Shown piece by piece: positions 60,738-64,000 of a stretch of DNA of 64,000 nucleotides (the stretch's first letter is position 1; each line of letters begins with the position of its first letter). The notes beneath the pieces are model-generated. The model was not told the origin of the DNA. It ran no database searches and worked only from the letters and a program-made list of their open reading frames with translations. This DNA comes from Methylotenera sp. GTDB lineage: Bacteria; Pseudomonadota; Gammaproteobacteria; Burkholderiales; Burkholderiaceae_C. A program made the position numbers and the translations under genes. The stretch covers positions 1-64,000 of the forward strand of contig JAIPCJ010000005.1 of the NCBI GenBank assembly GCA_021738245.1, read 5' to 3'.

Positions 60738-61655
60738 TCAGGCGGCTTCGGTCAGCGCCTTCTTCATCTTCTTCATCGCGGCCACCTCGATCTGGCGGAT
60801 GCGCTCGGCCGATACGCCATATTCGGCTGCCAGCTCATGCAGGGTCATGCCGCCGGAGGCGTCGTCGTTGACCTTCAGCCAGCGCTCCTCAACGATGCGG
60901 CGGCTGCGCGGGTCCAGCACATCGAGTGCGCGCTGGATGCCGTCACCGGCCAGCTCGTCACGGGCGCGCGCTTCGATCACGCGGGTCGGCTCGTGGCTGT
61001 CATCGGCGAGGTAGGCGATGGGCGCAAAGCTCTCGCCGTCGTCGTCGGTCTGGGGCTCCAGGGCCACGTCCCCGCCGGACAGACGGGTTTCCATCTCCAG
61101 CACTTCCTCGCGCTTCACGTTCAGCTCGCGGGCGACATGCGCCACCTCGGCTTCGCTCAGCGTGTTGCGATGCGTCTGGCCCTCCGCCTGCTCGGCCTTG
61201 AGCTGATGCTTCATCGAGCGCAGGTTGAAGAACAGCTTGCGCTGGGCCTTGGTCGTGGCGACCTTGACCATGCGCCAGTTCTTCAGGATGTACTCGTGGA
61301 TCTCGGCCTTGATCCAGTGCATGGCGTAGCTCACCAGGCGCACTCCCTGGTCAGGGTCGAAGCGCTTGACGGCCTTCATGAGGCCGACATTGCCCTCCTG
61401 GATCAGGTCGCCCTGGGGCAGGCCGTAGCCGACGTACTGGCGCGAGATGGAGACAACCAAGCGCAGGTGCGACAGCACCAGACGGCCGGCGGCTTCGAGG
61501 TCGCCCTTGTCGCGCAGGCTGCGGGCAGCGGAGGACTCCTCCTCCGCCGTCAGCAGCGGCAGGCGGTTGACGGCGGAGATGTAGGCGTCCAGATTGCCCA
61601 GCGAGGGCACCAGGGCCCAGGGGTCGCGGACGGCAATGGCAGAAGAGGCAGACAT
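60738..61655 (-). CDS. rpoH: RNA polymerase sigma-32 factor
   Basis: GDLIQEGNVGLMKAVKRFDPDQGVRLVSYAMHWIKAEIHEYILKNW; RpoH box QRKLFFNLRSMK; C-terminal HTH VSAERIRQIEVAAMKKMK. Confidence 0.97.
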   Translation of the reverse strand: MSASSAIAVRDPWALVPSLGNLDAYISAVNRLPLLTAEEESSAARSLRDKGDLEAAGRLVLSHLRLVVSISRQYVGYGLPQGDLIQEGNVGLMKAVKRFDPDQGVRLVSYAMHWIKAEIHEYILKNWRMVKVATTKAQRKLFFNLRSMKHQLKAEQAEGQTHRNTLSEAEVAHVARELNVKREEVLEMETRLSGGDVALEPQTDDDGESFAPIAYLADDSHEPTRVIEARARDELAGDGIQRALDVLDPRSRRIVEERWLKVNDDASGGMTLHELAAEYGVSAERIRQIEVAAMKKMKKALTEAA

Positions 61656-61702
61656 CGTATGAATCCTTGCGTGACCGCAGCGACAGCAGCTGCGATGCGC
61701 AA

Positions 61703-61732
61703 ATATTAGCACTCTGACTTGGCGAGTGCTAA
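61703..61732 (-). promoter_or_regulatory. Putative sigma-70 promoter of rpoH coinciding with CIRCE
   Basis: On the minus strand, TTAGCA (-35-like, 61727-61732), 18-bp spacer, TAATAT (-10-like, 61703-61708). Confidence 0.5.
61706..61732. promoter_or_regulatory. CIRCE element (HrcA operator) upstream of rpoH
   Basis: TTAGCACTC-TGACTTGGC-GAGTGCTAA: exact match to the CIRCE consensus TTAGCACTC-N9-GAGTGCTAA. Confidence 0.95.
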
Positions 61733-61822
61733 GTCAGACGATGCCTCATTTGGAATGCATTGTTCCTGCGGCTGGAACAGTGGGCGGGCGCTAACTTAAG
61801 CGCGCGGCGCCCACCCCGCCGG

Positions 61823-62323
61823 TCAGTCGACCAGCCCGAAATCGGGGCTGGTGATCATGGCTTCGATGTCCAGCAGAATGAGCATGCGCTCGCCCAGCTT
61901 GCCCAGGCCGGTGATGAAGCGGGCGTCCATGGCCGCGGGCACTTCGGGGCGAGGCTTGATCTCGTCGACGCCCAGTTCGAGCACGTCGGACACCGAGTCC
62001 ACCACGATGCCCACCACGCGGCCGGCCACGTTCAGCACGATGACGACCGTGAAGGCGTTGTACTCGCCGCTCTGGCCCAGGCGCAGGCGCAGGTCCAGGA
62101 TGGGCACGATGACGCCGCGCAGGTTGACCACGCCCTTCACGAAGTGCGGCGCGTTGGCGACCCGGGTCGGCGGCTCGTAGGAGCGGATTTCCTGCACGCG
62201 CAGGATGTCCAGGCCGTATTCCTCTTCACCGATGCGGAAGGTCAGGAACTGGCGGCCGTCGGGGCGTGCCAAGGCCTGCACGGCCTGGGCACCGCTGCTG
62301 GGAACAAGGTCGGTGGAACTCAT
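61823..62323 (-). CDS. cheW: CheW-like chemotaxis coupling protein
   Basis: QFLTFRIGEEEYGLDILRVQEIRSYEPPTRVANAPHFVKGVVNLRGVIVPILDLRLRLG. Confidence 0.94.
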   Translation of the reverse strand: MSSTDLVPSSGAQAVQALARPDGRQFLTFRIGEEEYGLDILRVQEIRSYEPPTRVANAPHFVKGVVNLRGVIVPILDLRLRLGQSGEYNAFTVVIVLNVAGRVVGIVVDSVSDVLELGVDEIKPRPEVPAAMDARFITGLGKLGERMLILLDIEAMITSPDFGLVD

Positions 62324-62357
62324 CGGGCGCTGTGATTGGGTTGGAAGGGATCGGCCG

Positions 62358-64000
62358 TCATTCTGCCCGCTCTGCCTCGGCTGGCGGCGCCAACAATTCA
62401 TCGACGAGGGCCAGGAGCTCGCGGATGTCCAGCGGCTTGGTCAGGTAGTGGCGGGCGCCAGCCGCCCGGGCTGCGGCGATCTGTTCAGGCTGCGCATTGG
62501 CCGACACGACGATGACGGGCAGGGCCAATCGGAGCTCGGCCAAGGCATGCAGCAGGTCTTCGCCGTCACCGTCGGGCAACTGCCAATCGAGCAGGAGCAG
62601 GGCCGGCGGTCGGGTGCGCAGGGCCTGCAGCCCGGCCGCGAGCGTCGGCACGGTTTCCAGCTCGATGCCGGGGCGCTGCTCCACGATGCCGCGCATCACC
62701 TCGGCGTTCATCGGGTTGTCTTCGACATAGAGCACACGCTGACGCGGCACCGCATGCCGGTCGGCGGGCAGCTCGGGCGCACCTTCGGCGCTGGGGATCG
62801 AAGGGGTCTCGGCGGCCGTCAGGCGCAGCACGAAACAGGCGCCGGGGCCGTCGGGCACGGCCTCGGCCCGCAGGCTGCCGCCCATCATCTCGGCCAGCCG
62901 CTGGCTGATGACCAGGCCGATGCCGGTGCCGGGCAGGCCGGTGCTTTCACGCCCCAGGCGATTGAAGGGTTGGAACAGCGCGCCGCGCTGCTCGTCGGTC
63001 AGCCCGATGCCGGTATCGCGCACGGCAATCTCCACCCAGCCGGGTTGCGGGCAACTGGCCGTGAGGCTGATGCTGCCGCCCGCGTGGTTGTACTTGACCG
63101 CGTTGCTCAGCAGATTGGTGAGGATCTGGGTCACGCGCGTCGCGTCACCCATGATGCTGGCGGCGCCGGCGTCGATCCGCTGGCTGATGGCCAGGCCGCG
63201 CTCGCTGGCCTGGCCCTGCACCAGGGCCAGGGCCCGAGCCAGCAGTGGTGGCAGGTCCAGCGGCTTGAGATCCAGCCGCAGCGAACCCGATTCGATGCGC
63301 GACAGATCCAGCGTGTCGTTGATCATCTCCAGCAGGTGCCAGCCCGCCTGAGCGATCTGCTGGGCGCGGTTGCGCTGCGCGGGGGGCAACGGGGCGCTGG
63401 CGTCCATCTGCATCAGCTGCGTGAAGCCCAGGATGGCGTTCATGGGCGTGCGCAGCTCATGGCTCATACGCGACAGGAACTCGTTCTTGGCCTGGTTGGC
63501 TGCCTCGGCAGCTTCGCGGGCGCGGTCGAGTTCCTCGATGCGGAGTTGGTCGGTGATGTCCTCGACCACGCCCACCAGCCGGTGCGGGCGGCCGTCACCC
63601 CCGCGCAGCAGGCTCACCAGGACTCGGGCATGGGCGATGCTGCCGTCCGGGCGCAGGTAGCGCTTGAGGCGCCGGTAGAAGGGGATCTCGCCTCGCATCA
63701 GGCTGCGGCCCAGACGGATGTCCTCGCGCCGGTCGTCGGGGTGGGTGATATCGATGGAGCGTTTGCCCAGCAGCGCCTGCGCCGGGTAGCCGACCAGCTT
63801 GCAGAACTGCGCGTTGACCTCCTGGAAACCGCCGTTGAGGTCGGCAAAGGCGATGCCGATGGGCGCCGTCTCGAAGATGCTGCGAAAGCGTTGCTCGCAC
63901 TGACGCAGGGCCTGCTCACCTTCGGTGCGGTTGGCGATTTCACGCTCGAGCGCGGCCGTCCGTTCCTGCACCAGGGCCTCGACATGCTGGGTGCGGCCTG
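62358..64000 (-). CDS. PAS-containing hybrid sensor histidine kinase with C-terminal receiver (truncated at the window edge)
   Basis: PAS FRSIFETAPIGIAFADLNGGFQEVNAQF; MSHELRTPMNAILGFTQLM; GTGIGLVISQRLAEMMGG; receiver VLYVEDNPMNAEVMRGIV. The frame stays open to base 64000 (RTQHVEALVQERT), so the true start is outside. Confidence 0.92.
   Translation of the reverse strand, partial: GRTQHVEALVQERTAALEREIANRTEGEQALRQCEQRFRSIFETAPIGIAFADLNGGFQEVNAQFCKLVGYPAQALLGKRSIDITHPDDRREDIRLGRSLMRGEIPFYRRLKRYLRPDGSIAHARVLVSLLRGGDGRPHRLVGVVEDITDQLRIEELDRAREAAEAANQAKNEFLSRMSHELRTPMNAILGFTQLMQMDASAPLPPAQRNRAQQIAQAGWHLLEMINDTLDLSRIESGSLRLDLKPLDLPPLLARALALVQGQASERGLAISQRIDAGAASIMGDATRVTQILTNLLSNAVKYNHAGGSISLTASCPQPGWVEIAVRDTGIGLTDEQRGALFQPFNRLGRESTGLPGTGIGLVISQRLAEMMGGSLRAEAVPDGPGACFVLRLTAAETPSIPSAEGAPELPADRHAVPRQRVLYVEDNPMNAEVMRGIVEQRPGIELETVPTLAAGLQALRTRPPALLLLDWQLPDGDGEDLLHALAELRLALPVIVVSANAQPEQIAAARAAGARHYLTKPLDIRELLALVDELLAPPAEAERAE

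Follow-up and report, generated by a model that had tools for sequence, protein, structure and literature searches.

The window analysed here, a 64,000-nucleotide stretch of a Methylotenera sp. contig, carries the gene for the heat-shock sigma factor sigma-32 on its minus strand. This rpoH gene (60738..61655; 305 aa) was identified by profile match, scoring 391.5 bits with TIGR02392 (cut-off 323.1) and also matching NF005143, and no second rpoH was found in the genome. Its ATG (61655-61653) follows a Shine-Dalgarno sequence, AAGGA (61664..61668, minus strand). Further upstream on the same strand, at 61706..61732, lies a perfect 9-N9-9 inverted repeat that matches the consensus of CIRCE, the HrcA operator (TTAGCACTC-N9-GAGTGCTAA), with 0 mismatches. 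Read along the minus strand, the region runs TTAGCACTC-GCCAAGTCA-GAGTGCTAA, then TAT, then 47 nt that include AAGGA, then the rpoH ATG. An earlier note made from the sequence had claimed a perfect CIRCE about 50 bp before rpoH, and both parts of that description hold: the element is the only one in the 64 kb at up to three mismatches, CIRCE never appeared in 100 shuffles of the window, and the distance to the ATG is exactly 50 bp. A longer open reading frame begins at a GTG inside CIRCE; it is unlikely to mark the true start of rpoH because the Shine-Dalgarno sequence and the relatives favour the ATG.

The neighbours of rpoH are signalling genes. On the same strand, 167 bp upstream, is a cheW-like gene (61823..62401, minus strand; 193 bits with the PRK10612 model, short of the cut-off of 260), itself preceded, again on that strand, by a PAS-histidine kinase-receiver hybrid protein (62358-63998) cut by the window end. 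The gap that separates rpoH from the cheW-like gene holds, at 61740-61830, the inverted repeat TGTTCC-N7-GGAACA and a GC-rich hairpin, GGGTGGGCGC...GCGCCCGCCC, which lacks a T-run and is little better than shuffled sequence (z -1.34).

An intact, full-length hrcA is present on contig 55 of the assembly (4.64 Mb in 243 contigs, 92% complete), where it scores 309 bits with TIGR00331 against a cut-off of 197. The earlier note had made its reading depend on such a gene, and the genome also places the two remaining CIRCE sites where HrcA operators are classically expected. Only three sites occur genome-wide at up to three mismatches: the one at rpoH, one at groES-groEL on contig 170 and one at a second groES on contig 218. 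This genome apparently contains two groES(L) operons. Both groES genes show CTTGAA...CCCTATAAT, a sigma-32/sigma-70 promoter, followed about 10 nt downstream by a CIRCE with one mismatch (L003:1501-1909 and L002:41-452, on different contigs). The grpE-dnaK operon, on contig 143, has no CIRCE in the same search; upstream of grpE (L322, about 834-859) stands CTTGAAA-N13-CCCCAT, a consensus sigma-32 promoter as judged by the consensus given in PMC545781. Because CIRCE marks groES and rpoH while grpE has a sigma-32 promoter without CIRCE, the predicted wiring has HrcA controlling groESL and rpoH, and sigma-32 controlling grpE-dnaK and groESL. From these motifs we infer a hierarchy that would lead from GroEL-HrcA through rpoH to DnaK. 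At up to three mismatches hrcA itself has no CIRCE in this genome. Several distant relatives (L225, L162 and L104, from genomes G082, G026 and G066) have an extra CIRCE some hundreds of bases before hrcA, which suggests HrcA autoregulation in those relatives but not in the Methylotenera genome.

The earlier note had also staked its reading on conservation in relatives, and the element proved widespread. Among rpoH loci from named genomes, 78 of the 80 close relatives have a CIRCE upstream (at most two mismatches), mostly 35-80 bp from the gene. One of the two exceptions is cut by a contig end (L081). The other, Allofranklinella schreckenbergeri (L083:900-1201), has hrcA but lacks the rpoH CIRCE; GGAACTT is retained there, with TCCAG 16 nt further on. 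Across Burkholderiales the element precedes 49/57 rpoH genes at the same threshold, and across the class, sampled mostly as one genome per family, 94/129 at up to three mismatches; 1850 shuffled upstream regions gave a best match of four mismatches, once. Other classes of the phylum had none (0/15). The arrangement recurs, then, in most sampled families of the class (Gammaproteobacteria as defined by GTDB, which includes the beta-proteobacteria) but not in E. coli, which was not among the control genomes with an hrcA match. Presence of the element also follows presence of the repressor: in the class sample 86 genomes have both hrcA and the rpoH CIRCE, 28 neither, 6 hrcA only and 9 CIRCE only (Fisher p=5.6e-15, in a test that ignores shared ancestry, with sampling mostly at one genome per family). 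Of the nine genomes in which hrcA was undetected, four are 62-85% complete and five are 97-99% complete. The rpoH site combines three properties expected of an HrcA/CIRCE regulon member: the operator consensus, an hrcA in the genome and a location, conserved in relatives, within a heat-shock gene's promoter region.

Where does the operator lie relative to the promoter? The earlier note had described a TTAGCA/TAATAT pair with an 18-bp spacer inside the element. The pair is there as described, and its -10 box (TAATAT, 61708-61703, minus strand) turned out to be conserved on one side of the palindrome. As a pair, however, the two boxes agree with consensus at only 8 of 12 positions and fall under the promoter scanner's threshold. 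The candidate -35, TTAGCA (61727..61732, minus strand; 4/6), is weak and lies inside CIRCE, so that its signal cannot be told apart from conservation of the operator. When upstream regions were aligned on CIRCE, the sole strongly conserved block was the element plus a 3' extension, A29 and T30, retained in 97% and 100% of close relatives and in 79% and 93% of the wide sample, respectively; their counterparts beyond the 5' arm showed no conservation in the same alignments. The extension completes TGC-TAANAT which, with its leading TGC, forms an extended -10. The pattern TANNNT spans the end of the 3' arm at 210/221 rpoH sites versus 2/20 groES sites (p=1e-17), and at the mirror side of only 15/221 rpoH sites. 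Conversely, CTTGA lies upstream of CIRCE at 17/20 groES sites versus 9/221 rpoH sites. The hallmark of a sigma-70 -10 box, conserved A2 and T6 at a fixed distance, is therefore found at the rpoH CIRCE, and this one-sided conservation supports the view that the 3' arm, with three further bases, doubles as the extended sigma-70 -10 of rpoH (TGC-TAATAT, 61703..61711, minus strand). HrcA bound at rpoH should then directly block RNA polymerase, because the operator arm is the -10 box itself. Counting about 7 nt past the -10 predicts a transcription start at 61695..61697 (minus strand) and a leader of about 40 nt that would exclude the operator.

Another motif, absent from the earlier note, emerged from the wide alignment: GGAACTTT at -15 to -8 is paired with TCT(C/A)A at 8-12 over a distance of 16 bp. 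This is the sigma-E (ECF02) promoter pattern GGAACTT-N16-TCTMA, and in most families it makes a candidate sigma-E promoter whose -10 would be supplied by the CIRCE 5' arm and loop. We scored GGAACTT-N15-17-TC(T/A)NA near CIRCE out of 11. Pairs reaching at least 9 accompany 68/94 CIRCE sites in the class, 37/48 in the order and 42/79 in close relatives, where shuffling of flanks and loop predicts about 3, 1.5 and 2, respectively; none of 20 groES sites has one. In Comamonadaceae both boxes are displaced together by 4 bp (GGAACTT from -11, TCNNA from 12), as expected of a functional promoter. The boxes were not found at the rpoH of the window, where the best score was 7/11 at an unrelated place and the GGAAC of the upstream inverted repeat lacks a -10 at the right distance; the Roseateles-, Rubrivivax- and Methylibium-like loci nearest to the window likewise lack them. 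Comamonas testosteroni (L036), by comparison, carries the two sigma-E boxes as well as CIRCE, and Roseateles (L006) resembles this genome in having the sigma-70 promoter only. This genome does encode an RpoE-like sigma factor (L318, G000:C81:14035-14592; 227 bits, slightly short of the 236 cut-off). We dropped the idea of a sigma-E promoter that as a rule persists after CIRCE is lost, as the signal was weak: 3/28 genomes without hrcA and CIRCE have boxes at a score of at least 10, with 0.25 expected. We give an even chance to a broader scenario, in which the ancestral rpoH promoter in most families of the class would have been composite: the HrcA operator would supply two -10 boxes, that of sigma-E from its 5' arm and loop and that of sigma-70 from its 3' arm, and the E. 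coli state, which lacks HrcA but retains the sigma-E promoter and has an RNA thermometer, would be derived. The overlap would allow a single repressor to gate two inputs into sigma-32, one from envelope stress and one from housekeeping transcription.

To explain these results we propose that the sigma-70 promoter of rpoH has a genuine HrcA operator superimposed on it, through which GroEL-dependent HrcA gates rpoH, a reading that we hold with high confidence. The earlier note had placed HrcA over the rpoH promoter, and the intact hrcA, the conservation in close and distant relatives and the one-sided conservation of the -10 all speak for it. The operator and hrcA are seen directly in the genome, the fusion with the promoter is argued from conservation and regulon membership is assigned by motif. 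As we infer it, HrcA would occupy the site and repress rpoH in the following sequence. In Caulobacter, HrcA requires GroESL for folding and binding (PMC8119881). At normal temperature free GroESL would keep HrcA folded, and HrcA on CIRCE would block RNA polymerase. Once GroEL is taken up by unfolded proteins, HrcA would lose activity and rpoH would be derepressed. Sigma-32 would transcribe grpE-dnaK from its consensus promoter free of CIRCE and boost groESL from the sigma-32/sigma-70 promoter that carries one. The rise in GroESL would finally refold HrcA and shut rpoH off.

HrcA could bind as proposed and still matter little, with rpoH levels set mainly by read-through, translation or sigma-32 stability and CIRCE acting as a minor modulator. 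In E. coli, control of rpoH is mostly exerted after transcription. Here no canonical terminator turned up in a T-run scan of the interval that separates rpoH from the cheW-like gene; the latter could be a source of read-through, in which case expression would be partly HrcA-independent. Yet the operator and -10 are strongly conserved with little else upstream, which suggests that the promoter matters, and folding of the 5' mRNA (259 nt) gave no sign of unusual stability or support for an E. coli-type RNA thermometer (z -0.64 against shuffles, a weak test, as the z-score is blind to specific pairing). We consider a minor role for CIRCE unlikely.

An alternative is that CIRCE works as an mRNA hairpin affecting rpoH stability or translation, since inverted repeats can fold in RNA and CIRCE, lying past the groES promoter, would be transcribed in groESL leaders. 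At rpoH, however, the -10 in the 3' arm puts the operator upstream of the predicted start, where this promoter would leave it untranscribed, and conservation past one end of the palindrome is unexpected for a hairpin; such a role therefore seems very improbable. Harder still to credit is a chance origin of the palindrome, or its survival as a relic unconnected with HrcA: a few genomes do retain CIRCE with hrcA undetected, but chance did not produce it in shuffles, its coupling to hrcA is strong and it is conserved across families. An HrcA operator that serves at once as promoter would explain this strict conservation.

The textbook picture of sigma-32 control comes from E. coli, an organism without hrcA. 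Should HrcA gate rpoH across most of the class's families, the HrcA and sigma-32 regulons, usually drawn as separate, would be better seen as one hierarchy with GroEL as its thermometer. The scheme also suggests, in directly testable form, how heat could induce sigma-32 in organisms with no known RNA thermometer. The bare finding of a CIRCE before rpoH may be known already; a 2003 survey by Permina and Gelfand is said to cover CIRCE regulons in beta- and gamma-proteobacteria and may already list rpoH. Neither the fusion of operator and -10 nor the overlap with sigma-E boxes nor a link with hrcA across the class came up in the literature searched, where the composite rpoH promoter appears to be undescribed.

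The principle is in any case not new, since Rodionov et al. (2004, PMC545781) predicted a CIRCE, likewise perfect, at -51 from the rpoH start codon of Geobacter sulfurreducens. That prediction concerns a single species of a different GTDB phylum, and the part of the paper available to us discusses neither promoter fusion nor sigma-E overlap. An ECF02-type promoter before rpoH is also familiar: the GGAACTT... sigma-E promoter at Bordetella bronchiseptica rpoH (fam) works in vitro and follows a pattern known for E. coli rpoHP3 (PMC3490749), with boxes also present in most relatives across the class. The fam paper does not mention HrcA or CIRCE, whereas CIRCE and the sigma-E -10 overlap in the relatives sampled here; the window differs in lacking the boxes. 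A third parallel is class I regulation of groESL, where operator and repressor are the same as at rpoH and feedback through GroEL is assumed. The difference lies in placement: in this genome and in 20 relatives the groESL CIRCE sits just downstream of a CTTGA/TATAAT-type promoter, whereas the rpoH CIRCE overlaps the very -10 box of its promoter.
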